Assembly: GCF_024345575.1 (NCBI RefSeq)
Contig: NZ_JAGQBJ010000003.1
Coordinates: 186,001-250,000 of the forward strand
Source: Cyanobium sp. Morenito 9A2
GTDB lineage: Bacteria > Cyanobacteriota > Cyanobacteriia > PCC-6307 > Cyanobiaceae
Reading direction: 5' to 3'
Length of the DNA stretch: 64,000 nucleotides
Shown here: positions 8,702 to 22,350 of the stretch, piece after piece
How positions within the stretch are numbered: position 1 is the first letter of the stretch
How the letters are laid out: each line of letters opens with the position of its first letter
Translations under genes and position numbers: made by a program
Notes under the pieces: generated by a model
Seen by the model: the letters and a program-made list of their open reading frames with translations, nothing else
Told to the model about the DNA's origin: nothing
Database searches by the model: none

Positions 8702-9604
8702 ATGAACCAGCTGATCGGTGTTGACCTGGGGGGCACGGCGATCAAGTTCGGCCGCTTCGACAGCTGCGGCCATGGCCTGGCTCAAGTGGAGCTCCCCACC
8801 CCGCAGCCCTCGGTGCCCGGTGCCGTCACCATGGCGATCGCCGCAGGGGTGGAGAAGATTGATCCGGAACATCTGGCGCCCTGGGTGGGCATTGGCCTGC
8901 CGGGGCCGACGGATCGTGAGGGCCGGGTGGCGCGGATCGCCATCAACCTGGAGGGTTGGCGGGAGGTCCCCCTGGCGGCCTGGCTGGAGCCGCGCCTGGG
9001 GCGCCGGGTCACCCTGGCCAATGACGCCAACTGTGCCCTGCTGGGGGAGGCCTGGCTCGGCGCCGCCCACGGGGTGGCGAGCGTGCTGCTGCTCACCCTG
9101 GGTACGGGGGTGGGCGGTGGTGTGTTGATCGAGGGGAAGCTGTACACCGGTCCGGGGGGCGCGGCGGCCGAGCCGGGGCTGATCAGCGTTGATCCCGATG
9201 GCCCCCCCTGCCGCAGCGGCAACCGGGGTTCCCTGGAGCAGTTCTGCAGCATCGCTGGCCTGGCGCGGCTCAGCCCTTTCGGTCCCGAAGAACTCAGCCG
9301 CCGTGCCGCCGCCGGCGATCCGGAGGCCCTGGAGGTGTGGTGCCAGTACGGCCGTTGGCTGGGCATTGGCCTGAGCTCCCTCCTCTATGTCCTTACTCCG
9401 GAGCTGGTGCTCCTGGGGGGGGGGCTGAGCGCGGCCAGTCGCCATTTCCTGCCGAGTGTCTGGGCGGAGGTGGAGCGGCGGGTGCTGGCGGTCAGCCGCG
9501 AGGGTCTGCGCATCGAGCCCTGCGCCCTTGGCAACGGTGCCGGACGGCTGGGGGCCGCCTGGCTGGCGCGTGATCGCTTCGGGGCCATCGGTGGCTTGGG
9601 ATGA
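8702..9604 (+). CDS. ROK family sugar kinase (glucokinase-like)
   Basis: A 300-residue ROK-family protein; such kinases phosphorylate glucose or similar hexoses with ATP in the cytoplasm. The N-terminal phosphate loop is GVDLGGTAIKFG, and NDANCALLGEAWLGAA and TLGTGVGGGVLIEGKLY are the sugar- and ATP-site segments. The zinc motif normally written CxCGxxGCxE is altered here to CRSGNRGSLEQ, so only one of its cysteines remains. The ATG at 8702 is used rather than the longer frame because the phosphate loop begins within a few residues. A second, unrelated-subfamily glucokinase lies at 23485-24501. The proA gene starts 13 bases downstream, so co-transcription is likely. Confidence 0.85.
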   Translation: MNQLIGVDLGGTAIKFGRFDSCGHGLAQVELPTPQPSVPGAVTMAIAAGVEKIDPEHLAPWVGIGLPGPTDREGRVARIAINLEGWREVPLAAWLEPRLGRRVTLANDANCALLGEAWLGAAHGVASVLLLTLGTGVGGGVLIEGKLYTGPGGAAAEPGLISVDPDGPPCRSGNRGSLEQFCSIAGLARLSPFGPEELSRRAAAGDPEALEVWCQYGRWLGIGLSSLLYVLTPELVLLGGGLSAASRHFLPSVWAEVERRVLAVSREGLRIEPCALGNGAGRLGAAWLARDRFGAIGGLG

Positions 9605-9617
9605 TGAAGCCTGAGCA

Positions 9618-10934
9618 ATGGACCAGGCTTTGAGTGTTCCAGATCCGACCCCTGAGCTGCTGCAACGGGCCGCGGCCGTGCGCCGTGCGGCGCTTGAGCT
9701 GGGCCGCTTGGACAACGGGGCACGGCGGCGGGCGGTGGAGGCCATGGCCGAGGCCCTGGAGGCGGAATCCGAGGTGATTGTGGCCGCGAATCGCCAGGAT
9801 CTCGAGAGCGCTGAAGCAGAGGGGCTGGCCCCTGCCCTGGCGGCCCGCCTCAGGTTGGATGGCCCCAAAGTGGCGAGCGCCGTCGAGGGTGTGCGCCAGG
9901 TGGCTCAGCTGGAAGACCCGCTGGGGCGCCGCCAGCTGCACACCGAGCTTGATCGCGGCCTTGAGCTTGAGCGGATCACCGTGCCCCTGGGGGTCGTGGG
10001 GGTGATCTTCGAGGCCCGACCCGATGCGGTGATCCAGATCGCTTCGCTGGCGGTGCGCTCCGGCAATGGCGCGATCCTCAAGGGGGGCCGGGAGGCCAAC
10101 GCCAGTTGCAGGGCGATCCATGGCGCCCTGCGCCGGGGGCTGGCGGCCAGTGCGGTAGGGCCTGAGGTCCTGGAACTGCTCACCTCCCGGGAGGAGAGCC
10201 TGGCGCTGCTCAGGCTCGACGGTCTGGTGGATCTGATCATTCCCCGGGGTTCCAATGCCCTGGTGCGCTTCATCCAGGACCACACGCGCATTCCCGTGCT
10301 CGGCCACGCCGACGGGATCTGCCATCTGTACGTGGATCGGGAGGTGGATGGGGCCCAGGCGGTGCGCATCGCCGTTGACAGCAAGACTCACTACCCAGCC
10401 GCCTGCAATGCGATTGAAACCCTGTTGGTCCATCGCCAGGCGGTGGCGACGTTTTTGCCGGCCGCCATCGCGGCCCTGCGGGCGGCGGGGGTGGAGTTGC
10501 GCGGCGACGCCGAAGCCCAGGCCGCCGGCGTCCCGATGGCGGCCTGCGATGCCGACTGGGACACGGAGTACGGCGATTTGATCCTGGCGGTCAAGGTGGT
10601 CAGTGGCCTGGAGGAGGCGCTCGAGCACATCGCCCGCCACGGCTCCCGCCACACCGACGCCATCTGCACCAGTGACCCTGAGCGGGCCGAGCGTTTTCTG
10701 GCCAGCGTCGATAGTGCCGGTGTGTATCACAACTGCTCCACGCGTTTCGCCGATGGCTTCCGCTACGGCTTCGGCGCCGAGGTGGGCATCAGCACGCAGA
10801 CCCTGCCGCCCCGGGGACCCGTGGGCCTCGAGGGGCTGGTCACCTACCGCTACCGGCTCAGGGGCCACGGTCAGATTGCCGCTGACTATGGAAGCGGTGG
10901 TCGCCCGTATAGCCACCGGCCCCTGCCCCTGTGA
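9618..10934 (+). CDS. proA: Gamma-glutamyl phosphate reductase
   Basis: ProA reduces gamma-glutamyl phosphate to glutamate-5-semialdehyde with NADPH, the second step of proline synthesis. The 438-residue length is usual. [14 protein letters not shown] is the family signature, [12 protein letters not shown] lines the nucleotide site, and [15 protein letters not shown] holds the catalytic cysteine. The C-terminal segment with [11 protein letters not shown] and RGPVGLEGL is also typical. It is followed by folB with a 4-base GTGA overlap. The pathway partner proB is not in the window. Confidence 0.97.
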
Positions 10935-11329
10935 ACGCCGAACCCCCGGTGCTGGATGCCATCCACGTGCGCGGACTGCGGCTGTGGGCCCATGTGGGGG
11001 TGCTGGAGGCCGAGCGGGAGCTGGGGCAGTGGTTTGAGCTGGGGTTCAGCCTCTGGGCCGACCTGGGCGCCGCTGGCTGCCGCGACGATCTTTCGCTCAG
11101 CTACGACTACGCCCAGGCCATCGCGGCGCTCCAGACCCTGGCGGGCGCTCTGCGCTGCCTCACCCTGGAGCACTTCGCCGAGCGGGCGTTGGATGAACTG
11201 GAGCGGCTCTACGGCCCGCTGCCCCTGCGGGTGCAGGTGATCAAGTGTCGGGCGCCGGTGAGCGGTTTTGATGGCTCGGTGGCGGTGGAGCGCTGGCGCC
11301 ATGCCGAGGGGCGGCCGTCGCTGGGATGA
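10931..11329 (+). CDS. folB: Dihydroneopterin aldolase
   Basis: FolB converts 7,8-dihydroneopterin to 6-hydroxymethyl-dihydropterin and glycolaldehyde in folate synthesis. The protein has 132 residues, close to the usual 120. The N-terminal segment [20 protein letters not shown] resembles the family start (I..LR....GV...E), [11 protein letters not shown] matches the conserved tyrosine region, and [12 protein letters not shown] is the conserved helix. It starts at a GTG that overlaps the proA stop, and its own stop overlaps the lipase start by 4 bases, so translation of the three genes is probably coupled. Confidence 0.9.
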
Positions 11330-11922
11330 CCGGCGTCCCCCCCCTGGTGCTGGTCCACGGGCTCTGGGACACGCCACGTCTGTTCGATCCCCTGAGCCGC
11401 GCCCTTGCGGGCGAGCGGGACCGGCTTCTGGTTCCCTTCCTGCCCCACAGCTTCGGGGCGCGGCGCATGATCCCCCTGGCCGAGGAGCTGGGTCGCGCCA
11501 TCGACACCGCCTACGGCCCGGAGCAGATGGTGGATCTGCTGGGTTTCTCGATGGGGGGTGTGATCGGCCGCTGCTGGATCCAGCTCCTCGGGGGACACCA
11601 CCGCACCCGCCGCTTCATCAGTGTGGCCAGCCCCCAGCAGGGAACGCTCCTGGCCCAGGTCTGTCCCTCCTGGCTGCTGGGCGGCATCGCCGAGCTCAAG
11701 ATGGGCAGCCCGTTGATTCAACGGTTGAACGAGGATGTGCGTTCACTCGCCTCGGTGGAGTGCCTCAGTTTGTTCACGCCCATCGATCAGGTGGTGGTAC
11801 CAGGCTGGCGAGGGGTGTTGCCGGTGGGCAAGAGCCGCTCCCTGCCGGCGACCCTGCACCAGTTCGTCCTCAGGGATCCCCGTTGCCTCGCCGTGCTCCG
11901 GCGGGAACTTCTCCGACCATGA
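11326..11922 (+). CDS. Lipase-like alpha/beta hydrolase
   Basis: A 198-residue soluble alpha/beta hydrolase similar to the short triacylglycerol-lipase or acyltransferase-like proteins common in cyanobacteria. VLVHGLWDTP is the oxyanion segment near residue 9, GFSMGGVIGR is the nucleophile elbow with the catalytic serine at about 74, FTPIDQVV gives a candidate Asp and LHQFVL a candidate His. It has no signal peptide. Its ATG overlaps the folB stop by 4 bases. The substrate is unknown; a role in lipid or ester turnover is inferred from the fold only. Confidence 0.8.
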   Translation: MTGVPPLVLVHGLWDTPRLFDPLSRALAGERDRLLVPFLPHSFGARRMIPLAEELGRAIDTAYGPEQMVDLLGFSMGGVIGRCWIQLLGGHHRTRRFISVASPQQGTLLAQVCPSWLLGGIAELKMGSPLIQRLNEDVRSLASVECLSLFTPIDQVVVPGWRGVLPVGKSRSLPATLHQFVLRDPRCLAVLRRELLRP

Positions 11923-11980
11923 GTGGCCCTCCCGGCGGCGGCATGGGGACGTCTTCCCGCCAGCAAATGGGGTCGTGGTG

Positions 11981-12517
11981 ATGATCCAAAACTATCTGTT
12001 TAGTCTGCTGATCCAAAACTATCTGCTTTGTCTGCTGATCGGTCTTTCGGTGGCCTCGGCCCATGGCTTCGCGCTGGCGTCCCATCGTTTCGGCCTAAGG
12101 CGCATTCTGGTGTTTCTGTTGCTAGATGCCGCCATCATTGCCATTGCCCTGGCCCTGACGCGCCTCTACTTGCTGGTGACGTTGACGACTCAGTTCCATC
12201 AGGATCTTTTTTCGCAGGATTTCCTCTCGATCGCCTTCATGGGACGGCTTCCCTTGCTGCTCTTCTTTGCCACCGCCACCCCTTACCTCGGCGATGCCAT
12301 CGCCATCGGTCTGATCACCTGGGAGCACCTCAGGCTGCTGAATCACCTGATCGCTGGACTGGGTCTGCCCCCATTGCCGGTGATTCTCTTCACCTTTCCC
12401 CCGATGGCGCTGTTTCTCAGCGTGGTGGTGCTGTTGCAGCGCTACCGCTGGGACCGGATCCGGAGCCTTGTGCTGGCCAGGGCCGAGATCCACCCCCCTC
12501 CGGTCCAGGGCGTATGA
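11981..12517 (+). CDS. Multi-span membrane protein of unknown function
   Basis: A 178-residue protein starting at ATG 11981. It has about four hydrophobic helices (starting near residues 4, 42, 84 and 130), separated by short polar loops, and a polar tail. No family is recognised. The first 18 residues after the methionine are a direct duplication of nine residues (IQNYLFSLL then IQNYLLCLL), encoded by a 27-bp tandem repeat. The gene overlaps the following membrane hydrolase gene by 4 bases (ATGA), which argues that the two products work together. No ribosome binding site is obvious upstream, so the exact start is uncertain. Confidence 0.7.
   Translation: MIQNYLFSLLIQNYLLCLLIGLSVASAHGFALASHRFGLRRILVFLLLDAAIIAIALALTRLYLLVTLTTQFHQDLFSQDFLSIAFMGRLPLLLFFATATPYLGDAIAIGLITWEHLRLLNHLIAGLGLPPLPVILFTFPPMALFLSVVVLLQRYRWDRIRSLVLARAEIHPPPVQGV
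11984..12037 (+). repeat. 27-bp tandem duplication inside the membrane protein gene
   Basis: Two adjacent 27-base copies, 11984-12010 and 12011-12037, both beginning ATCCAAAACTATCTG and ending GTCTGCTG, differ at only two positions. They encode IQNYLFSLL and IQNYLLCLL at the start of the first membrane helix. The near identity suggests a recent in-frame duplication or a slippage site. Confidence 0.95.
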
Positions 12518-13614
12518 GGGGAACTGGTGTTCGTGCCTCGCGGCGCCCGGCCCAGTCCGGGCGTCTGCTGCTGGCTGTCCTGGTTCTGATTTCGGTGCTG
12601 GTCTGGCTCGCTGTCGATCGGCTCGAGGTCAGCCATCGCCACCGTGCTGTATACCCCTTTGTGCATCAGGATCTGCTGCCCCTTGTGCTGGTCTCCTTGT
12701 TGCTGGCCGTCACCGCGACGGGCCTGCTGTCGTTCACCTCCAGCCTTGGCTTCTGGACGGGCTGGCTGGGGGAGTTGAGGGATCCTCTGACGCTGTTCCA
12801 GGCTCCCGCAGCCGGTGCCGCTGGAGGCTCTGATCATGTGCACGCCTATGTGATTTATCTGGATGGCATTCATACCCGGGAGGAAACGCATCCACGCCTG
12901 ATCACCCAGTTCCTGCAGATGTTGGTGCGAAAAATGGGGCCTGGGGTCGAGCTGATCACGAATGTGGAGCCCTATGTGGTGATGGCGGATGGACTGAATG
13001 CGTCCAGGATCTCTGGATGGATGTGGAGAAGGCTGTTCTTTTTCTCTGAGTATCACGACAGCAGCCCTGTGAGATGGCTCTGCTCCTTTCTTGTCCAATC
13101 TTACAATCTACTTCGCGTGGCGATCTCCAGTGATAGGCGATATGGAATTATCTACAACTACGAAATCGCACTGGCCATCGCTACCCAGCTGGAAAAGGCC
13201 GGCTTTCGTCCTGGAGGAATGGCCAGAATCATCCTACTCGGTTATAGTGGTGGTGGTCAGATCGCGATCGGAGTCTCTGACTATCTTGCACGGATCTGTG
13301 GCCAGTCGATTCTCATCATCACCTTGGCGGGTGTCTTCAGTGGCAGCCAGTCTCTCCGTTCCGTCGACCGCTTGGTCTGCCTGCAAGGAAGTGCCGATGT
13401 TCTCAGTGGCCGCGTGAATCAGCTGCTCTTCCCAGGACGTTCGAGCCTCCTGGCCCATTCCTGCTGGAACAGGGCCCTGCGTTCCGGCAAGGTGGAACGG
13501 CTCGAGATTGCTCGCATGGGTCATTGCGGCCGGCGCGGCCCGTTCGGGGATTTCAGCGAGCAGCTCACCAGCCGGATCGCCGTTCGAATTCTCACCTGGG
13601 CAGGGGCCGCCTGA
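12514..13614 (+). CDS. Membrane-anchored serine hydrolase-like protein
   Basis: A 366-residue protein with two N-terminal membrane helices (about 18-35 and 54-75) and a C-terminal alpha/beta-hydrolase-like domain. GYSGGGQIAIG gives a nucleophile elbow with Ser245; QGSADVLSG (Asp295) and MGHCGRRGPF (His337) are placed correctly to complete a triad. A conserved-looking segment YLDGIHTREETHP (about 115-127) precedes it. The ATG start overlaps the upstream membrane gene by 4 bases. From about 13080 onward the DNA is visibly richer in A and T, with codons such as TAT, AAT and GGA, than the flanking genes. Its 3' end overlaps the convergent MFS gene by 23 bases. The substrate is unknown. Confidence 0.72.
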   Translation: MRGTGVRASRRPAQSGRLLLAVLVLISVLVWLAVDRLEVSHRHRAVYPFVHQDLLPLVLVSLLLAVTATGLLSFTSSLGFWTGWLGELRDPLTLFQAPAAGAAGGSDHVHAYVIYLDGIHTREETHPRLITQFLQMLVRKMGPGVELITNVEPYVVMADGLNASRISGWMWRRLFFFSEYHDSSPVRWLCSFLVQSYNLLRVAISSDRRYGIIYNYEIALAIATQLEKAGFRPGGMARIILLGYSGGGQIAIGVSDYLARICGQSILIITLAGVFSGSQSLRSVDRLVCLQGSADVLSGRVNQLLFPGRSSLLAHSCWNRALRSGKVERLEIARMGHCGRRGPFGDFSEQLTSRIAVRILTWAGAA

Positions 13615-14818
13615 GTTCCTCGCTGCCCCTCACCAGGAGCAGAACCAGCAACGAGGCTCCCAGCACCAGAATCGTCGCCAGGAAGGAGGCGCCGGGATTG
13701 AGGCGGTCGTAGATCAGGCCCACCAGCGGCGGCCCGAGACAGCTGCCGAGATTCTGGATCGATTGCACCATCCCCATGCCGCTACCGGTGGCCTTGGGGT
13801 CGCTGACGCCCACCACGATCGAGCGGATCGAGGGGGCGGCCATCCCCAGGGACAGACAGATCAGGGTGACTCCCGCCGTGACCGGAACCGCCGCTCGACC
13901 GGGGCTGGCCAGCAGCAACAACAGGCAGCCGAGCGCCGCCACACCATGGGAGAGGACCAGCGTGGCCCGATCCCCGAGGCGACGGCTGAGCCGACCGATC
14001 ACTCCGAGTTGCTGCACCACCGTCACCGCGCCGGCGATCGTGAAGGCGAAGCCGGTCTGGTGCGGGCTCCAGCCCAGTACTTTGGCCATGTAGAAGCTGA
14101 TGATCCCCAACAGTCCGTAGCCGGCCAGAGAGAGCAGGCCGAAGGCGAGCGATGAACCGGCGAGCCCGCCCTGCTGGAACGGTCTGAGAGCGGTGCGCAG
14201 TCCGGCCACCAGCCCCTGGCGGGAGAGTGGTAAGCGCGCAACCCCGCCAGGGAGCGCCGGGTTGGTCTCGCGAAGATCGAACCAGGCGAAGAGCAGATTC
14301 AGCAGCAGCGTGAGGGTGGCGAAAAGGATTGGAACCCGCAGGCCGAGGCCGGCCAGCACACCGCCGAGCCCAGGGCCGATCACGATGGCGATCGCGCTGG
14401 CCATGGCGATCAGGCCAAAGGACTGGGTCTGCTGTTCGCTGGGGGTGATGTCGGCGATCACCGAAGCGGCGGTGGAGGCCGTGCCGCCGCCGAGGCCGTC
14501 GATCATCCGCCCCGTGAACATCAGCGGCAGGTTGGGAGCGAAGCCGAAGACCGACATCCCGACGACACCGAGGCCCAGGGAGCTCAGCATCACCGGTCGA
14601 CGGCCGACCATGTCGCTGAGGTGACCGGCGAACGGTGTGATGACGAGTGAAGTGAGGGTGTAGCTGGAGAGCAGCAGGCCCATGACCAGGCCACTGGTGT
14701 GGAACTGCAGCAGCAGGTAGGGCAGCAGCGGAATGATCAGGCACCGGGCCAGGCGATCGTTCAGCAGCGCCAGAAACACGACCAGCAGCAGGCGTCGATC
14801 CCGGACTGTCTCCTTCAT
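13592..14818 (-). CDS. MFS transporter (DHA1/TetA-like exporter)
   Basis: A 408-residue, 12-helix major facilitator of the drug:H+ antiporter type. The loop after helix 2 reads GHLSDMVGRRPVM, the classical MFS motif A, and the fifth helix carries the glycine-rich antiporter signature (AIAIVIGPGLGGVLAG). The N-terminus (LALLNDRLARCLIIPLLPYLL) is typical of the family. It is probably the last gene of a unit with the ATP-grasp and COQ4-like genes (gaps of 15 and 45 bases), so it may export their product; that is inference. Its end overlaps the convergent hydrolase gene. Confidence 0.88.
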   Translation of the reverse strand: MKETVRDRRLLLVVFLALLNDRLARCLIIPLLPYLLLQFHTSGLVMGLLLSSYTLTSLVITPFAGHLSDMVGRRPVMLSSLGLGVVGMSVFGFAPNLPLMFTGRMIDGLGGGTASTAASVIADITPSEQQTQSFGLIAMASAIAIVIGPGLGGVLAGLGLRVPILFATLTLLLNLLFAWFDLRETNPALPGGVARLPLSRQGLVAGLRTALRPFQQGGLAGSSLAFGLLSLAGYGLLGIISFYMAKVLGWSPHQTGFAFTIAGAVTVVQQLGVIGRLSRRLGDRATLVLSHGVAALGCLLLLLASPGRAAVPVTAGVTLICLSLGMAAPSIRSIVVGVSDPKATGSGMGMVQSIQNLGSCLGPPLVGLIYDRLNPGASFLATILVLGASLLVLLLVRGSEELRRPLPR

Positions 14819-14863
14819 CAGCCCTCGAGCGGCTGCGGGCGCCGGAAGATGGGCATGGGTTGG

Positions 14864-15535
14864 TTACACCGAATAGGGTTCATAGCGAGCCGTCCGCAGG
14901 CCCACCCCGGCGCGAAGCTCATCGAGATCGCTGCCCCAGTGCTCTTCCCAGCGAACGGCCAGCATCGGGGTGTCCGTCGCGGCGATCTCGATTCCGGCTT
15001 CGATGGCACGCAGCAGCGGCTCGATCGGCGCTCCCAGGCCCATGGCGTGAAGCACTCCGGCGGCCACGATCAGGATCGAGAGAGGGCTGTAAATCTGACA
15101 GAGCTGAAAGGCCTGCAGCCCCAGTTCGCCGGCAAGGTCCGTGCCGAAGCCGGTCATCACATGCCAGATGTCATGGGTCTGGCGCACCCTCAGGTCCAGA
15201 TAGGTGCCCTTTCCGATCACCTCGATCACCTCGAAGAAGTCCGGGTCGAAGCCGGCGGAGAGCAGCGACGACGCATAGGCATGGCCCAGGGTCCCCGGCG
15301 GATGCAGCAGCAGCGTGGTGAGGCTCGGTCGTTGCGGTTGGTAGCGCTCGTCCGCCAGTTGCTGGATGCCGGGCTGGGCGAGCATGTGCTCCACGTTTTT
15401 CATCGAGATCGCCTGATGGCTCAGGCCTCGCTGGATCTCGAACACGGAGGTGGTGGCACGGGGATCCTGAACGAAGTGCATGAAGCCCTTCAACGTCTCC
15501 AGCAGTTCCAGTTTCAGTTCACTGTTGATTTCCAT
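14864..15535 (-). CDS. COQ4-family protein
   Basis: A 223-residue homologue of COQ4, a protein of ubiquinone synthesis in eukaryotes. The zinc motif HDxxHx11E is intact: His121, Asp122, His125 and Glu137 in HDIWHVMTGFGTD...GE. Cyanobacteria do not make ubiquinone, so here the fold is likely used on another prenyl-quinone, a lipid or a small aromatic acid. The gene sits 15 bases downstream of the ATP-grasp gene and 45 bases upstream of the MFS gene, all on the minus strand. Family assignment is firm; the reaction is unknown. Confidence 0.85.
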   Translation of the reverse strand: MEINSELKLELLETLKGFMHFVQDPRATTSVFEIQRGLSHQAISMKNVEHMLAQPGIQQLADERYQPQRPSLTTLLLHPPGTLGHAYASSLLSAGFDPDFFEVIEVIGKGTYLDLRVRQTHDIWHVMTGFGTDLAGELGLQAFQLCQIYSPLSILIVAAGVLHAMGLGAPIEPLLRAIEAGIEIAATDTPMLAVRWEEHWGSDLDELRAGVGLRTARYEPYSV

Positions 15536-15550
15536 TGGTTCAGATCGGCC

Positions 15551-16744
15551 TCAACGGGGCTCGCAGGCCAGATCATGGAAGAAGTGCTCGGCTACGGAAA
15601 CCCCCAGCTGCCGGGCCTCCGCGGTGAGGGTGGCGATCATGGCCATGAAATCGACGATGGGCCAGGGGTCCAGGGGGTCGAACAGAACATCCCGGCTGAG
15701 AAGGGCTTGCCAGAGCTTCGGGTCGAACCAGCGTTGCGGTGAGGCGCGAACCGCCTGGAGCAGCTGCAGGTGATTGACCGCACCTGACGATGGCCCCAGG
15801 GGTGCCGGCGCGTCCCCTCCGCTCCCGCTGCCGCTCAGCAGGGCGGCGAATCCAGGGCGCCGCTCGAACAGGTGAAGGCCGCTGGTGCCCCGGGGATTGC
15901 ATTCGATGCACTGGAGGCCATCGCCCGTGCGCAGGAAGTCGAGACCGTACTGGCCGTCGTAGCTGAGGCTGGCGAAAAGGGTGCGGGCGAAGGCCAGGCT
16001 TTCACCGGCTTCCACGGGCAGGTAGACGGCGCTGGCCCCGAGCCCCTGGCGGGCCTGGCTGCCGGTGATGAAGTCCATGTGGTAGTCCCCGTGGGCCACC
16101 ACCTCACCCTGACGGCAGATCCCGTAGCTGGAGATCAGCTCCCCGCTGATCCGTTGCTGCACCACCCAGGGTTCCTCCGGGCTGGGATCGACAGTCTCCA
16201 GCGCTGATGCGGACGGTCTGATCAGCACCGAACTGGCGAAGCGGGAGAACACCGGCTTGAGCACCACGTCTTCATCCAGGGCCGCCCAGGCCGAGCGCAG
16301 GTCCGCCGCCGACTCCGCCAGCATCGTTGCAGGAACCGGCAGATTCAGGCTCTGACAATGGGCGATGAAGCGCATTTTGTCGTCCAGCAGGGCCAGCAGC
16401 TCCAACGGCGCGACGGCGAGCCGCGCGGCTGGCAACCTTGCCTGCAGCTCCTCCCGCCGCCTGGCGATCACGAATCCCTCCTCGTAGATCGGCAGCACCA
16501 GGGTCACGCCATGGTCCCGGCCGATGGAGGCCAGGGCGCCGATGAACGCCTCGGGTTGGTCCCTGGGGGAGGGGGTCGAGATCCAGTGGTTGACGCTGCG
16601 GGAGCGGCTCAGCGGCGTGAGGGGCAGAGAATCGGTGCCGATCACGGTCCAGCCGGCGCGTCTGAGGATCCGCGCCGCGGCCAGGGAGGCCGGCATGCGA
16701 CCGGCTGTGATCAGGGCCACACCAACGCGGGCGGAGGCTCCCAT
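15551..16744 (-). CDS. ATP-grasp ligase-like enzyme
   Basis: A 397-residue ATP-grasp protein of the carbamoyl-phosphate-synthase/PylC-like type; these enzymes use ATP to activate a carboxylate and join it to an amine or other nucleophile. The preATP domain (VALITAGRMPASLAAARIL, residues 9-27) is followed by LLDDKMRF (119-126), the ATP-binding VVLKPVFSR (Lys163) and the metal ligands in GLDF (Asp269) and ECNPRG (Glu281, Asn283). The end (about 320-397) is a small helical extension. It heads the ATP-grasp > COQ4-like > MFS unit and is divergent from the flavoprotein gene across about 160 bases. Substrates are unknown. Confidence 0.85.
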   Translation of the reverse strand: MGASARVGVALITAGRMPASLAAARILRRAGWTVIGTDSLPLTPLSRSRSVNHWISTPSPRDQPEAFIGALASIGRDHGVTLVLPIYEEGFVIARRREELQARLPAARLAVAPLELLALLDDKMRFIAHCQSLNLPVPATMLAESAADLRSAWAALDEDVVLKPVFSRFASSVLIRPSASALETVDPSPEEPWVVQQRISGELISSYGICRQGEVVAHGDYHMDFITGSQARQGLGASAVYLPVEAGESLAFARTLFASLSYDGQYGLDFLRTGDGLQCIECNPRGTSGLHLFERRPGFAALLSGSGSGGDAPAPLGPSSGAVNHLQLLQAVRASPQRWFDPKLWQALLSRDVLFDPLDPWPIVDFMAMIATLTAEARQLGVSVAEHFFHDLACEPR

Positions 16745-16905
16745 GCGATCCCGCGGGTTTTACTGTGGGAATGATGGCCGCTGGGGCCCGTTGTCGCAAC
16801 GCCAATCCAGGGTCCTGTTCGCAGGGCTCCAGTCCAGTGCTGCGGTGCAGCGGAGATCGGGCGCGAATCTGGGAGGATCGTGAGTGGATCGCTCGGCCCG
16901 CTGCC
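16745..16905. promoter_or_regulatory. Divergent intergenic region of the ATP-grasp and flavoprotein genes
   Basis: About 160 bases separate the two divergent starts and must hold both promoters. No convincing -35/-10 pair or operator palindrome was found; the only AT-rich patch is TTTTACTG near 16759. An in-frame ATG at 16765 could lengthen the flavoprotein by 47 residues, in which case the shared promoter region would shrink to about 20 bases, which argues against it. Confidence 0.4.
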
Positions 16906-18522
16906 GTGAACGAGTCAGCGGGACACCGCGCGAAGAGTGCAGGATCCGGCCCCAGTTCCGGCTCCTACGGCGACAGCGCTCTGGATGTGGCCATCGTTGG
17001 CGCGGGTGTGGCCGGTACGTTCACCGCCTGGAGGCTGAAGGTCGACCGCCCCGAGCTCTCGGTGGCTCTGTTTGAGGCCTCCCCAAGGCTGGGGGGCCGG
17101 CTCTACTCCCAGCACCTGCCGGACGCCCGCGGGGTGCCGATCGAGCACGGCGGCATGCGATTCAGCCGGCAGCACCGCCTGCTGGCCGCCCTGGTCGAGC
17201 ATCTGGGGCTGCCGACCCGGCCGTTCGTCTCCGTTCTGGAGGGTCGCAATCCCCTCTATCTGCGCGGGGTGCGTACCTCCCTTCAGGGACTGGCCCATGG
17301 GGAAACGGTTCCCTATGCGCTCCCCCCGGAGCTGACGAACCAAGATCCCGCCGGGATCATCCCCTTCGGCGTGGCGACGTTTCTCTCCTCCCAGGGCCTG
17401 CCGCTCACCAGCCGCGTCGGGCTGCTCGAGCAGCTGGCTCGGGCGGATTACAGCGGGCGCGCGTTCGCGGACCTGAGCTTCCTCGACTTCCTGCGCCAGG
17501 TCTGTACCCCGGAGATGCTGGCTTACTACAACGATGTTCACGGGTATTGGGTCGACACCCACAACGACGTCAGTGCTGCGGAATTGATGAAGGGCTTCCT
17601 GCCTTTCATCAGCGATGCCGAGACCCTGACGCTCAGCGAGGGCATGGACAGCCTGCCGCGGACGCTGGGCGCGCGCGCCGCAGATCGCGGCTGCCCGCTG
17701 CATCTCGGTTGTGCCTTGGAATCGATCCGTCTCGAGCACGACAGGGAGGGTTGCCCCTGGTTCGAGATCGGCATGGGGAGCTCCGCAGGGCGGCGGCGGC
17801 ACAGGGCCCGTGCGCTGGTCCTGGCCCTGCCGCCGAACCGGCTTCGCGTCATCGATGGTCTTCTGGAGCTGGCGCCCTCCCTGGCGCCGCTGCTCAATCG
17901 GGTCGTCGAGATCGCCGCGATCAAGACCCATTTCGTCTACGCCGAACCCTGGTGGCGGCAGCTCGGCATCGTTGCTGGTGAGGGGCGCACGGACCTGCCG
18001 CTGCGGCAGTGCCTCTACATGGGCTCAGCTGACGCCGGCCAGCCTGCCGATGGCCCCGGATGGGCGGTGCTGCTCGCCTCCTACACCGATTCCCAGGCCA
18101 CGGAGTTCTGGCGGCGGCAGCAGGCGAAGGGCGAGTCCTTCGACAGGCGGCGGGGCCATCCTGAGGATCGATCGCTGGGCTGCTCCGCTCCCCATTTCGA
18201 TCACCTGAGTGCGATGTTGGCGGAGTTGCATGGGCGGGAGCTTCCTGATCCCGTCTGGGCCAGTTCCTGTGACTGGAACTGTCAACCCTCCGGTGTGGCC
18301 ACCCATGCCTGGCGCTCCGGCAGCGACAGTGCGGAACTGGCACCGCGCATTCGCCAGCCGCTGCCTGGCCTGCCGCTGTACATCACCGGCGAGGCCTTCT
18401 CCCAGGAGCAGGGATGGGTCAACGGAGCGCTGCGATCGGCGGAAGCGCTGCTGCGCTCGGCTTTCCAACTGCCGTCTCCGCCGTGGTGTCCGGCGGATGC
18501 CCCCCTGGATCCACTGCCCTGA
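16906..18522 (+). CDS. Flavin amine oxidase (L-amino-acid-oxidase-like)
   Basis: A 538-residue FAD protein. The dinucleotide fold VAIVGAGVAGTF is at about 28-39, the second motif RLGGRLY at 61-67 and HGGMRFS at 81-87; the GMRFS-type motif marks L-amino-acid oxidases and related flavoproteins rather than phytoene desaturases. The closing FAD segment GEAFSQEQGWVNGAL lies near residue 500. The GTG at 16906 is chosen because upstream residues from ATG 16765 look non-conserved and cysteine- and arginine-rich; the start is therefore uncertain. It is divergent from the ATP-grasp unit and ends two bases from the convergent prlC. It probably oxidises an amine or amino acid used or made by the neighbours. 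Confidence 0.8.
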   Translation: MNESAGHRAKSAGSGPSSGSYGDSALDVAIVGAGVAGTFTAWRLKVDRPELSVALFEASPRLGGRLYSQHLPDARGVPIEHGGMRFSRQHRLLAALVEHLGLPTRPFVSVLEGRNPLYLRGVRTSLQGLAHGETVPYALPPELTNQDPAGIIPFGVATFLSSQGLPLTSRVGLLEQLARADYSGRAFADLSFLDFLRQVCTPEMLAYYNDVHGYWVDTHNDVSAAELMKGFLPFISDAETLTLSEGMDSLPRTLGARAADRGCPLHLGCALESIRLEHDREGCPWFEIGMGSSAGRRRHRARALVLALPPNRLRVIDGLLELAPSLAPLLNRVVEIAAIKTHFVYAEPWWRQLGIVAGEGRTDLPLRQCLYMGSADAGQPADGPGWAVLLASYTDSQATEFWRRQQAKGESFDRRRGHPEDRSLGCSAPHFDHLSAMLAELHGRELPDPVWASSCDWNCQPSGVATHAWRSGSDSAELAPRIRQPLPGLPLYITGEAFSQEQGWVNGALRSAEALLRSAFQLPSPPWCPADAPLDPLP

Positions 18523-18523
18523 G

Positions 18524-20686
18524 TCAGCTCAGCAGCAGCCCCGAATGGCGGATCAGCGCCTCCGCTGAGGGCTCACGGCCCCGGAAGTCGGCGAACACCT
18601 CTGCAGGGCTGCGGCTGCCACCGAGGCTGAGCACCGTCTCGCGGAACCGTCGTCCGGTGGCGCGGATCTCGTCGTCGTTCTCCAGGCCCAGCTCCTCGAA
18701 GGCGCTGAAGGCATCGGCGCTGAGCACCTCGGCCCACTTGTAGGAGTAGTAGCCGGCGGCATAGCCCCCGGCGAAGATGTGGCCGAAGGAGCAGAGACTG
18801 GCGTCTTCCGGGATCAGGGGCAGCACCGTGGAGCTGAGGGCGATCTCCCGACGCAGATCCTCGGGGCTGCGGTCGCTGCCGCTCTGCCATTGGCTGTGAA
18901 GCCGCAGGTCGGTGAGGGCAAAGAACACCTGGCGCAGGGTGGCGCAACCACCCATGAAGGTGCGGGCGGCCTTGAGCTTGCGGAAGACGTCTTCTGGCAG
19001 GGGCTCATCCGTTTGCCAATGGCGGGCCATGCCCAGCAGGGTGGCGCGGTCGTAGCACCAGTTCTCCATGAACTGGCTGGGCAGCTCGACCGCATCCCAT
19101 TCCACGTTGTTGATGCCCGCCGCCTGGGGCCGCTCGACGGTGGTGAGCATGTGCTGAAGCCCATGGCCGAACTCGTGGAAGAGGGTCTCCACCTCCTCAA
19201 AGGTCATCAGGCTGGGGGTGTCTCCCACCGGCGGGCTCTGGTTGCAGATCAGGTAGGCCACCGGCAGCACCGGCGTGCCATCCGGGGCAAGCGAGCGCCC
19301 CAGGCAATCGTCCATCCAGGCGCCGCCCCGCTTGCTGCCGGGCCGGCTGTAGGGATCCAGGTAGAAGGCCGCCATTGGCGTGTTCGTGGCCGCATCGCTG
19401 ACCCGGAAGTAGCGCACATCTCCCTGCCAGATCGGGGCTTCGCCATCGGCGGACTCGATCTGGAGGCCGAAGAGCCTGCCGCAGAGGGCAAACAGCCCAT
19501 CGAGCACCCGAGGCAGCGGGAACCAGGGCCGCAGCGCTTCGCTGTCGAGATCGAAGCTGCGCTGACGCAGCCTCTCGGCCCAGTGACTGACATCCCAGGG
19601 CTTGAGATCGCTGGCCTCCGGCGCGCCTTCGGCGGCCGCCAGGGCAGCGAGGGCCTTGAGCTCAACGTTGGCCACCGGCAGGGCTGCGACGCGCAGCTGT
19701 TCCAGTAACGCCTCCACGGAGGCCACCGAGTCGGCCATCTTCGAGGCCAGGCTCACCTCGGCCCAGTTGGCGTAACCCAGGCGCTGGGCCTGGAGTTGAC
19801 GCAGCTCCAGAATTCGCTCGAGCACGGGGCTGTTGTCGTGCTCGCCGCTGGCGGCCCGGCTCACATGGGCCTTGTAGGCCTGCTCGCGCAGGTCGCGCCG
19901 CCGGCTGTACTTGAGAAAAGGACCGAAGCGTGGGAAGTCCAGCCCCAGGCGCCAGGGGCCGGTCTCGGCCGTGGCCTCGCTGCCGCCCGTAGCGGTGTCA
20001 CCGGCCTCGCGGGCGGCCTGGGCCAGCAGCTCCAGAAGACTGGCGGGTAGGCCCTCCACCTCTTCAGGCGTGCGCAGGGTGAGCGACCAGCCGTTGGTGG
20101 CATCCAGCAACTGATTGCCGAAGCGGGTGGAGAGCTCCGCCAGCTCCTGGTTGGCGGCATTGAAGGCCTCCTGCTCTTCGCCCTTGAGCCCCACGCCGCG
20201 CAGGCGCATGTCCCGCAGTTCCGCCTCCAGGATGCGACGCCGGGTGCCATCGAGGGGCTCTTCGCTGTCTTGAAGTTTGAGCAGTGCCAGGGCCAGGTAG
20301 ATGGCCCGGCTCTGGCCGAGACGGTTGCCGAAGCGCACCACGGCCGGCTGCTGGCGCTGGTGCGCTTCCCGCAGTTCGCTGGAGTTGCAGACCCCATTGA
20401 GGTGGCTGACGACCCCCCAGCTCCAGCGCAGCCGTTCACCGATGCGATGGAGTGGATCGAACACGTCGTGCCAGTCCAGGACCTCCTGGCCCTCCATCCG
20501 GGTGTCGAGGCTCTCCTCCAGGGCGGTGAGATCGGCGTCGAGACCCTCCAGCAGCAGGGGGACGCCCTCATTCACCTGGGTGGTGGAGATGGCGCTGAAG
20601 TCGGGCAGTCCGTGGCCTTTCAGCAGCGGTGCGGCGGTCGCCTCTGGGGCGGCGCAGGGAACGGAGATATCGGAACTGGAGATCAT
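18524..20686 (-). CDS. prlC: Oligopeptidase A (M3 family zinc metallopeptidase)
   Basis: A 720-residue cytoplasmic M3-family oligopeptidase, which trims short peptides including signal-peptide fragments. The zinc-binding motif HEFGH is at 504-508 within VETLFHEFGHGLQHM, with the third ligand region AVELPSQFMENW following. GGYAAGYYSYKWAEVLSADAF near the end is a strongly conserved substrate-site segment. The ATG at 20686 (MISSSD) is preferred over a longer frame that would add 19 residues without similarity. It lies downstream of ndhD on the same strand with 86 bases between. Confidence 0.93.
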   Translation of the reverse strand: MISSSDISVPCAAPEATAAPLLKGHGLPDFSAISTTQVNEGVPLLLEGLDADLTALEESLDTRMEGQEVLDWHDVFDPLHRIGERLRWSWGVVSHLNGVCNSSELREAHQRQQPAVVRFGNRLGQSRAIYLALALLKLQDSEEPLDGTRRRILEAELRDMRLRGVGLKGEEQEAFNAANQELAELSTRFGNQLLDATNGWSLTLRTPEEVEGLPASLLELLAQAAREAGDTATGGSEATAETGPWRLGLDFPRFGPFLKYSRRRDLREQAYKAHVSRAASGEHDNSPVLERILELRQLQAQRLGYANWAEVSLASKMADSVASVEALLEQLRVAALPVANVELKALAALAAAEGAPEASDLKPWDVSHWAERLRQRSFDLDSEALRPWFPLPRVLDGLFALCGRLFGLQIESADGEAPIWQGDVRYFRVSDAATNTPMAAFYLDPYSRPGSKRGGAWMDDCLGRSLAPDGTPVLPVAYLICNQSPPVGDTPSLMTFEEVETLFHEFGHGLQHMLTTVERPQAAGINNVEWDAVELPSQFMENWCYDRATLLGMARHWQTDEPLPEDVFRKLKAARTFMGGCATLRQVFFALTDLRLHSQWQSGSDRSPEDLRREIALSSTVLPLIPEDASLCSFGHIFAGGYAAGYYSYKWAEVLSADAFSAFEELGLENDDEIRATGRRFRETVLSLGGSRSPAEVFADFRGREPSAEALIRHSGLLLS

Positions 20687-20772
20687 CGCTGCAAGCCTCG
20701 GGCTGATCTGCTGCCGGGGAAGCGGCCAGCCGGTTTGCCCCATTCCAGCGGAGCGTCAGCACTCCCCGTGGT

Positions 20773-22350
20773 TCAGCCCAGGGCGGAGATCCGGCCGAGG
20801 GCGATCTGGGCATGACTGGCCAGGTCTCCGGCCAGGGCGGTGGTGGAGGCCTCATAGATGTCGATGGCCACCCGGGGCCAGAAGCCGATCACCAGGGTGG
20901 GCACCAGCAGGCTGAGCCCGATCACCAGTTCGCGGGGATTCATGTCACCCACCACCGCCAGCGCAGGAATCCTGGGGCCGAAGAAGACCCGCCGGCACAT
21001 CGAGAGCAGGTAGATCGGGGTGAGCACCAGGCCGATTGCCGCCAGCAGCACGGTGATCACGCGGAATCCCGTGGTGAAGCCGGCGTTGCTGGTGACCCCA
21101 AGAAAGATCGTGATTTCACTGATGAAACCACTCATGCCGGGTAGGGCTAGGGAGGCCAGGGAACTGGTGAGGAAGAAGGCAAAGGTGATCGGCAGCACCT
21201 TCGCCAGTCCCCCCATGTTGGGAATCGAGAGGGTCTTGGTGCGCTCGTAGAACACTCCGGTCACGAAGAACATGGCCGCGGCGATCAGGCCATGGCTGAT
21301 CATCTGCAACATCGCCCCACTGAGGCCGAGGCTGTCCACGGCCCCGATGCCCAGGAGCACAAAGCCCATGTGGCTCACCGAACTGCAGGCAATGCGGCGT
21401 TTCACATTGTCCTGGGCGAAGGCATTGAGCGCTCCGTAGATGATGTTGACGATGCCGAGCACAATCAGGGCTGGCGCCAGCACCACATGGGCGTCGGGAA
21501 GCATCTGCACGTTGAAGCGCAGCAGGGCATAGCCCCCCATCTTCAGCAGCACCCCGGCCAGCAACATCGACACCGGGGCGTTGGCTTCGCCGTGGGCATC
21601 GGGCAGCCAGGTGTGCAACGGGAAGATGGGCAGCTTGACGCCGAAGCCCACCAGGAATCCGAGATAACAGAGAATTCCGAAACTGCCGGCGTAGGAGCGT
21701 TGGCTCAGTTCCTGAAGGTTGAGGGTGAAGGTGTCACCGCCGAGCGCCAGGGCCAGACCGCTGATCAGGATCAACAGCGAGGCGGTGGCTGTGTAGAGAA
21801 TGAATTTTGTGGCGGCGTACTGCCGTGCCTGGCCGCCCCAGATGGCGATCAACAGATAGACCGGCACCAGTTCCAGTTCCCAGGCGAGGAAAAAGAGCAG
21901 GAAGTCCTGGGAGAGGAACACCAGTGACTGGGCCGAGGCCTGGAGCAGCAGCAGACCGAAATAGAGCTGGGTCTTGCGGTTGATGTTCCAGCTCGCGGCC
22001 ACCGCCAGCAGGGTGACCAGGCCGCTGAGCACAACGAGGGGGGTGGAGAGACCATCGGCCCCCAGGGACCACTCCAGCCCCAGCAGCGGCACCCACGGCA
22101 GGCGTTCCACCAGTTGCAGGCCGCTGGTGCCGCCGTCGTACTCCTGGCTGAACACCCAGAGCATGAGCAGCAGGTCGGCCAGCAGCACCACCAGGGCGAC
22201 GGTGCGTGGGCCGCGAGGATCGGTGCCATCTCCCGGCAGGAAGGGCATCAACAGGGCACCTCCCGCCGGCAAGAGCGCGATCAGGCTGAGCCAGGGGAAG
22301 CTGGAGCCAAAGAGGCTGGACGCGGCCGACAGGGGCAGATTGGCGTCCAT
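20773..22350 (-). CDS. ndhD: NAD(P)H-quinone oxidoreductase subunit 4 (NdhD, NDH-1)
   Basis: NdhD is a proton-pumping antiporter-like subunit of the thylakoid NDH-1 complex, used in respiration and cyclic electron flow. The 525-residue protein has about 14 hydrophobic helices. [16 protein letters not shown] carries the conserved charged glutamate in a membrane helix, and [18 protein letters not shown] and [12 protein letters not shown] are signature segments. Overall similarity is to the NdhD1/D2 type of the respiratory NDH-1L form rather than the CO2-uptake paralogues; that subclass call is tentative. It follows thrB on the same strand after a 115-base gap holding a long palindrome. Confidence 0.95.

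Follow-up and report, generated by a model that had tools for sequence, protein, structure and literature searches.

A compact block of ATP-grasp, COQ4-like, MFS and amino-acid-oxidase-like genes in Cyanobium sp. Morenito 9A2, a possible specialised-metabolite pathway

In the 64,000-nucleotide stretch of Cyanobium sp. Morenito 9A2 DNA analysed here (the window), open reading frames place genes for an MFS transporter, a COQ4-like protein and an ATP-grasp ligase together on the minus strand, with a divergent flavoprotein gene on the plus strand (Table 1). The first-pass annotation had described three close minus-strand genes divergent from an FAD oxidase, and the arrangement is as it claimed, each frame having a Pfam match above cut-off. 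Since the MFS and COQ4-like genes lie 45 bp apart and the COQ4-like and ATP-grasp genes 15 bp apart, it is plausible that these three form a single minus-strand transcription unit. A search of 13500-18700 revealed no sigma-70-like site, and the divergent control region showed no consensus promoter, a result that says little. The G+C content of the block (0.672) equals that of the window (0.676), so that composition gives no sign of the block having arrived as a foreign unit; by gene, it is 0.628 for COQ4 and 0.672-0.683 for the other three. Pfam and NCBIfam gave no match to a PKS, NRPS or RiPP core gene, a prenyltransferase or a KAS III among the block proteins.

Table 1. Features of the four-gene block and its immediate flank, in window positions
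Feature	Position	Strand	Evidence
Flanking membrane protein	11981..12517	+	Relative at G030 locus
Flanking hydrolase-like protein	12514..13614	+	Relative at G030 locus
MFS transporter, 408 aa	13592..14818	-	PF07690 (MFS_1) 1.9e-56
COQ4-like protein, 223 aa	14864..15535	-	PF05019 (Coq4) 7.4e-21
ATP-grasp ligase, 397 aa	15551..16744	-	PF02655 (ATP-grasp_3) 4.4e-07
Divergent control region, ATP-grasp/oxidase, upper limit of gap	16745..16905		Sequence
FAD-dependent L-amino-acid-oxidase-like protein, open frame 585 aa	16765..18522	+	PF01593 (Amino_oxidase) 4.4e-28

The ATP-grasp protein matches PF02655 with 30.5 bits (cut-off 23.2), and scores 224.4 bits against the NCBIfam equivalog PRK06849 (NF005315), under the cut-off of 406. 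Its AlphaFold model (pLDDT 91.1) has an ATP-grasp fold, with structural matches to 2pn1, PurT and PylC, and residues K123, K163, E281, N283 and R285 are invariant across 39 aligned sequences. We examined 97 loci of relatives, comprising 80 of 408 confirmed relatives and 17 hand-picked from further matches; 96 are distinct, the ATP-grasp sequences of L042 and L098 being identical. KAS III is encoded near 80 of the 97, within 2 kb in 67, and many are also near OleD-like and F390-synthetase-related genes. Compared with PRK06849-type proteins from such clusters (KAS III, OleD-like SDR, MBL, F390-synthetase-related), the block member is 28-40% identical and has the conserved residues intact, but it falls below the NCBIfam cut-off, has no KAS III in its block and carries a 6-residue insertion. 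Two of the 39 aligned sequences have this insertion, the block protein and that of locus L080, and the two pair with an SH-aLRT of 99. By sequence we class the protein as PRK06849-like but as a distinct subgroup marked by the insertion, so far seen in two genomes, Morenito 9A2 and a Synechococcaceae MAG (CANCJV010000005.1). In the MAG, the L080 protein, the highest-scoring relative (39% identical), lies among polyketide-type genes: it adjoins an MFS gene, an ACP-FkbH protein and a KS-KR-ACP-thioester-reductase PKS. The two loci thus share the ATP-grasp gene followed by an MFS gene, but the MAG cluster has PKS and FkbH genes and, in the 17 kb seen, no oxidase, no COQ4 and no relative of the window MFS.

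The COQ4-like protein passes the curated cut-off of PF05019 (74.9 versus 22.9 bits), and its PDB relatives include 3msq (4.8e-30) and 6e12, which is Alr8543 (9.1e-14). The intact HDxxHx11E metal motif noticed previously is borne out by HDIWHVMTGFGTDLAGE. Domain, motif and structurally solved relatives all agree with the COQ4/Alr8543 family; what differs is the setting of the block copy beside ATP-grasp and oxidase genes. Proteins of this kind are found well beyond the locus. The Morenito 9A2 genome encodes six, five besides the block member, and a relative of the latter at E<=1e-20 is present in 62 of 386 phylum-sample genomes, its own counted; it is 28-42% identical to the other copies in that sample. 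To our knowledge, cyanobacteria do not make ubiquinone. The suggestion that the COQ4 fold is used here outside ubiquinone synthesis is sound in substance, but the situation is widespread in cyanobacteria and not peculiar to this locus; with its defined set of partners, the four-gene block offers a testable handle on the work of the fold outside quinone synthesis.

Animal COQ4 is described, in the part of the source available, as a Zn-dependent decarboxylase that depends on the HDxxHx11E motif (PMC7615680). For Alr8543, a similarly partial text records geranylgeranyl monophosphate in an entry since made obsolete, whereas 6e12 contains oleic acid together with two Mg ions (PMC9774615). Coq4 has also been noted inside a singleton Synechococcus RiPP/polyketide cluster (PMC10783134, excerpt). 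This cluster resembles ours in having a Coq4-annotated gene in a predicted picocyanobacterial biosynthetic setting, but has lanthipeptide precursors and polyketide-type domains, and the excerpted description, on which the comparison is based, names neither ATP-grasp nor oxidase. In the open-access literature that we searched, we saw no paper that gives COQ4 a defined part in specialised metabolism.

The flavoprotein passes PF01593 with 99.2 bits (cut-off 19.8), and the GMRFS-type motif ascribed to it reads GGMRFS. Its best PDB relative is 8t8a (9e-53, aligned residues 72-585), an L-arginine oxidase (PMC11694665, seen in part). Since this similarity begins at residue 72, a GTG at 16906 is a possible start, and the true start may lie anywhere from 16765 to about 16906. 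The likeness to 8t8a and to the L-lysine oxidase 7eih/7eii extends over residues 72-585, with Rossmann and GGMR motifs and a C-terminal GWVNGAL region, but the side-chain-recognition residues are not matched. In the available part of PMC11694665, this recognition is assigned to Glu493 of the arginine oxidase and to Glu383 of the lysine oxidase, the counterpart of Gln350; in an alignment read by eye, the block oxidase has Ile in place of Gln350 and Ala in place of Glu493. These substitutions make arginine oxidase an unlikely identity. Against a lysine oxidase only the Ile counts, because that enzyme, too, has Ala in place of Glu493. Four relatives, 29-35% identical, were found in cyanobacteria of the phylum sample, and two of them are near RiPP-type genes: one (L218) lies in a cluster with leader peptide, YcaO and ThcOx-type genes, and the other (L221) adjoins a TPP enzyme and is followed, at a distance of about 4-6 kb, by genes for PqqD and Asn synthase.

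The best NCBIfam model for the MFS protein is the Tet(A/B/C) efflux family NF012174, at 157.9 bits, far under the cut-off of 475, which rules out a Tet(A)-type tetracycline exporter. A second match in the genome is 39% identical, and the transporter family is present in 156 of 201 family genomes, its own counted. Sequence comparison places the protein as a diverged extra copy of this family-wide transporter, presumed to act as an exporter. Among family genomes, the ATP-grasp protein (1 of 252) and the oxidase (1 of 251) occur solely in Morenito 9A2 itself. Neither is thus a core gene, and for these two the occurrence rules out the housekeeping explanation that the first-pass annotation had named as its own counter-case. 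For the MFS gene, related to so common a transporter, a housekeeping role is not fully rejected.

In six of eight relatives, the same-genus G001 among them, the flanking lipase and peptidase genes are 36-61 bp apart, measured between the ends of protein matches. A seventh, G030, has additional, different genes between the two; for G006, the eighth, the gap is unspanned, the lipase not being found near the peptidase. None of the four genes is at this site in the seven spanned relatives, nor in the part seen of the eighth. The membrane protein and hydrolase next to the block gave no Pfam match at E<=0.1. Relatives of both are present at the G030 locus (41% over 306 aa for the hydrolase, 31% over 147 aa for the membrane protein) without the four genes; the pair was accordingly dropped as island members and is probably not part of the set. 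Gene calls in the G030 gap and at some other loci come from a simple ORF caller and partly from translations read by eye.

We found no second instance of the four-gene set in the 97 ATP-grasp loci, 18 COQ4 loci (a selection from the COQ4 matches) and four oxidase loci, which sample the genomes and do not cover them all; a contig edge cuts several loci short. At 1e-4 the ATP-grasp loci gave no match to the oxidase, with one partial match at 0.001 (L116), and weak MFS matches occurred in two (L154 and L057). COQ4 was found in three (L105, L143 and L157), all of one Bdellovibrionota-type lineage with a common gene order in which COQ4 and a KAS III operon are divergently oriented; this adjacency represents at most one independent event and may be due to chance. 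The COQ4 loci had neither ATP-grasp nor oxidase, and the oxidase loci had no COQ4, ATP-grasp or window MFS. The neighbourhood check proposed in the first-pass annotation therefore found no COQ4 beside ATP-grasp and oxidase in the loci sampled, and as far as sampled the four genes are neighbours nowhere else, one of the two outcomes that it had set down as refuting its reading.

We infer a link between the four genes, and regard it as an even call whether they constitute a small pathway, specific to the lineage, that makes a specialised metabolite. In such a pathway, the flavoprotein would act on an L-amino acid, either free or as a residue within an intermediate, and oxidise it to an imine or 2-oxo acid; a lipophilic intermediate would lose a carboxyl group to the COQ4-like metalloprotein, or else be held by it; the ATP-grasp enzyme would spend ATP on coupling a carboxylate with an amine; and the MFS protein would export the product. 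The gene families and intact key residues suggest such a scheme, and it is supported by the compact order, the absence of the block from the site in relatives and the rarity of the ATP-grasp and oxidase genes. Further support comes from the biosynthetic contexts of relatives, with L080 among PKS-FkbH genes and L218 and L221 near RiPP-type genes, and from the partial accounts of animal COQ4 as a decarboxylase with the same motif (PMC7615680) and of Coq4 in a Synechococcus cluster (PMC10783134). It is weakened by the lack of a second genome with the set among those sampled, and of a PKS, NRPS or RiPP core gene. The earlier idea of a pathway to a small amino-acid-derived compound is partly supported, by a compact block in which two genes are non-core and have some relatives with natural-product connections, but the set recurs in no other genome examined. 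A bolder version is doubtful: it makes a COQ4-fold metalloprotein the recruited decarboxylase of a minimal pathway that needs no carrier, where the oxidase and the new ATP-grasp subgroup serve to make and export an amino-acid-derived amide.

A serious rival, though on balance an unlikely one, is that the gap between the two convergent flanking genes is prone to insertion and has gathered unrelated genes that work apart: a COQ4 copy on its own, an MFS duplicate, an ATP-grasp enzyme and a scavenging oxidase. The other genes in the G030 gap make stepwise collection possible, and six COQ4 copies in the genome make a chance COQ4 neighbour likelier. Outside this locus, COQ4 relatives come without the other partners, the MFS gene is one found family-wide, here in a diverged copy, and the uneven G+C of the genes, in a block that matches the window, reveals no common foreign origin. 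Against this, the minus-strand genes are closely spaced on one strand, the ATP-grasp and oxidase genes are extremely rare among family genomes, and the seven spanned relatives lack all four genes from the gap, with no partial stage.

It is improbable that the main function of the locus lies in the oxidase, as a scavenger of nitrogen or a producer of hydrogen peroxide, while the MFS protein transports amino acids or drugs and the other genes are incidental. The closest solved structure is indeed an L-arginine oxidase, and the portion of PMC11694665 available mentions such an enzyme from Synechococcus elongatus. However, Ile and Ala at positions 350 and 493 in the by-eye alignment do not suggest a basic substrate, the ATP-grasp ligase is left without a role, and two of the four cyanobacterial relatives are near RiPP-type genes. 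Least probable, in our estimate, is a quinone or lipid task for the COQ4-like protein, such as lipid binding or plastoquinone-type ring decarboxylation, in a block that modifies a lipid or prenylated compound. The Alr8543 ligands in the partial text of PMC9774615, geranylgeranyl monophosphate (obsolete entry) and oleic acid (6e12), are consistent with this, and KAS III near most ATP-grasp relatives, together with the OleD-like and F390-synthetase-related genes near many, suggests acyl substrates; yet the block has neither prenyltransferase nor KAS III, and the genome has five further COQ4 copies that could fill this role.

There was no tRNA within the window, and a PHROGs scan of the ATP-grasp, oxidase, COQ4 and hydrolase proteins gave no match. 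Plasmid relatives were all distant, with a best listed identity of 36% for the ATP-grasp protein and likewise for the oxidase.

The four genes lie where the first-pass annotation had placed them, and Pfam backs the family of each. Within the minus-strand trio the gaps are short, with 45 bp between the MFS and COQ4-like genes and 15 bp between the COQ4-like and ATP-grasp genes. The start of the divergent flavoprotein is uncertain, because similarity to its best solved relative sets in only at residue 72 of the open frame; an in-frame GTG is present at 16906.

Coordinates of the four genes and of the genes flanking the region
Feature	Position	Strand	Remark
MFS	13592-14818	-	Pfam family match above cut-off
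COQ4-like	14864-15535	-	Pfam family match above cut-off
ATP-grasp	15551-16744	-	Pfam family match above cut-off
FAD flavoprotein (oxidase)	16765-18522	+	Open frame; Pfam family match above cut-off
Lipase	11326-11922		Flank of region
M3 peptidase	18524-20743		Flank of region

The host genome is cyanobacterial (3.10 Mb, 26 contigs). The place of the block was compared by a DNA search of 9000-22300 in eight relatives, followed by BLAST on the fetched DNA. The lipase and M3 peptidase genes proved to be near neighbours in the relatives, and in six of the eight (G001, which is of the same genus, G019, G024, G031, G033 and G036) they are separated by just 36-61 bp, measured between the ends of the protein matches. 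In G030, relatives of two window proteins, the membrane protein (31%) and the hydrolase-like protein (41%), lie in the gap together with further genes predicted by a simple gene caller, and BLAST found none of the four block genes there. None of the four was found in the ~2.4 kb past the peptidase of G006, where the lipase was absent from the fetched stretches and the gap is thus unspanned. Since the lipase-peptidase gap lacks them in the relatives where it was spanned, the four genes form a discrete block between the hydrolase and the peptidase. The block may have arisen by one insertion event or several, or the relatives may instead have lost it. Its G+C content (0.672) equals that of the window (0.676) and is lowest in COQ4 (0.628); there is no tRNA within the window and, by Pfam, no transposase among the block's genes. 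The membrane and hydrolase-like proteins occupy 11981-13614 of the window and have no Pfam match; in G030 their relatives form a pair after the lipase gene (L209:4290-5962).

Two of the genes are rare in the family. A profile built from two ATP-grasp sequences, those of the window and of L080 (a locus in a Synechococcaceae MAG, CANCJV010000005.1), matched one genome among the family's 252 (E<=1e-30), and the single protein matched 1 of 60 relatives at 1e-20; both times this was the window's own genome, as it was for the oxidase (1/251 family genomes at 1e-20). Among 386 genomes sampled across the phylum, own included, relatives were present in 53 for the ATP-grasp protein (1e-10), 62 for COQ4 (1e-20) and 5 for the oxidase (1e-30). 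ATP-grasp and COQ4 matches were both present in 19 other genomes of this sample; comparison of match positions placed them within 300 kb on one contig in none of the 19, and on different contigs, where adjacency is possible, in 10. At 1e-50, 156 of the 201 family genomes, the window's among them, have an MFS relative. Among the matches listed there are two MFS copies in the window genome and one in each of the others, which makes the gene in the window an additional, diverged copy.

A small pathway, each chemical step of which we infer, would most simply account for all four genes: an amino acid would be oxidised, decarboxylation and an ATP-driven ligation would follow, and the product would be exported. 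Because no second instance of the gene set was found, we give this account, which the first-pass annotation had proposed in outline, no better than an even chance. Alternatively, unrelated genes might have gathered at an insertion-prone gap, which we consider rather unlikely.

For the oxidation step of the putative pathway, the best solved relative of the flavoprotein is 8t8a (9e-53), the L-arginine oxidase of Pseudomonas (PMC11694665). That report describes Glu493 as important for substrate choice, with Ala518 of an ancestral lysine oxidase as its counterpart, and equates Gln350 with Glu383, a substrate side-chain contact in the ancestral enzyme. Counted along the alignment, positions 350 and 493 are taken up in the window oxidase by Ile and Ala, from which one would not expect a basic amino acid as the substrate. 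In the surroundings of the four other oxidase relatives of the phylum sample there was no MFS, COQ4 or ATP-grasp match at 1e-4; RiPP-type settings occur in or near two of them, L218 and L221. The L218 relative is adjoined by a nitrile-hydratase-leader-like peptide and by YcaO and ThcOx-type oxidase genes, and this cyanobacterial locus (L218:7045-12853), in which the flavoprotein lies between the peptide and the other two, is a RiPP-type cluster. In L221 (8226-15814) a TPP-dependent enzyme is encoded immediately after the oxidase relative, and Asn-synthase and PqqD genes follow ~4-6 kb downstream. This order is in keeping with oxidise-then-decarboxylate chemistry and, by analogy, the COQ4-type protein could replace the TPP-dependent enzyme's decarboxylating role in the block.

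The metal motif of the COQ4-like protein is intact, as had been claimed. Animal COQ4 is a Zn-dependent decarboxylase whose product was not detected in motif double mutants (PMC7615680). Nostoc Alr8543, which likewise uses this motif to bind metal, has a solved structure containing lipid-like ligands (PMC9774615). Among solved structures the window protein is closest to 3msq. The genome holds five other COQ4 copies, all elsewhere; next to these, none of the other window proteins used as queries had a match. One copy adjoins two Rieske-type oxygenase genes (L010:8066-10915); by eye its motif reads HDxxHx11D, with D for E, and an exact motif search gave none. The 18 loci around COQ4 relatives contained no ATP-grasp or oxidase match and, in one case, a weak MFS match. 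COQ4 does adjoin an ATP-grasp cluster in three Bdellovibrionota-type loci, representing one lineage. In the open-licence literature we found no paper on COQ4 with an ATP-grasp biosynthetic cluster or on the Coq4 family with a natural product; the one report found there that ties Coq4 to a biosynthetic cluster of a picocyanobacterium concerns marine Synechococcus, where Coq4 is noted in a singleton cluster alongside lanthipeptide precursor genes and polyketide-type domains (PMC10783134).

The predicted structure of the ATP-grasp protein (pLDDT 91.1) indicates an ATP-grasp fold, which is evidence of fold and not of substrate. Its leading structural matches include 2pn1, PurT, PurK and PylC; the Foldseek list also contains two L-amino-acid ligases, 4wd3 (rank 17) and 3vot (rank 34). 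The best sequence match is that of L080, with which it pairs at an SH-aLRT of 99 (in a 98-row quick tree without bootstrap, and with long end branches in both) and shares a 6-residue insertion found in these two alone among 39 aligned rows. The L080 gene adjoins an MFS gene, an ACP-FkbH protein and a compact PKS composed of KS, KR, ACP and thioester reductase domains (L080:2210-13479). The genome of L080 has four COQ4 matches, none inside the locus, and no good oxidase match, only one short piece (E 9.4e-5). No paper on ATP-grasp with FkbH in cyanobacteria was found in the open-licence literature.

Finally, we surveyed 97 ATP-grasp loci, 80 kept of 408 relatives from a scan with an eight-sequence alignment and 17 from the phylum sample. 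Matches at 1e-8 in the fetched DNA were found to KAS III in 80 loci (within 2 kb of the ATP-grasp gene in 67), to an OleD-like SDR in 74, to an MBL-fold protein, named from its translation, in 71 and to an F390-synthetase-related protein in 51; L080 has none of the four. This set is a widespread cluster, other in kind than the block, for which no paper was found in the open-licence literature. The loci with PRK06849-type ATP-grasp genes (L042-L058, L080-L159), mostly near genes of these four kinds, come from Bacillota, Chloroflexota, Planctomycetota, Pseudomonadota and cyanobacteria.
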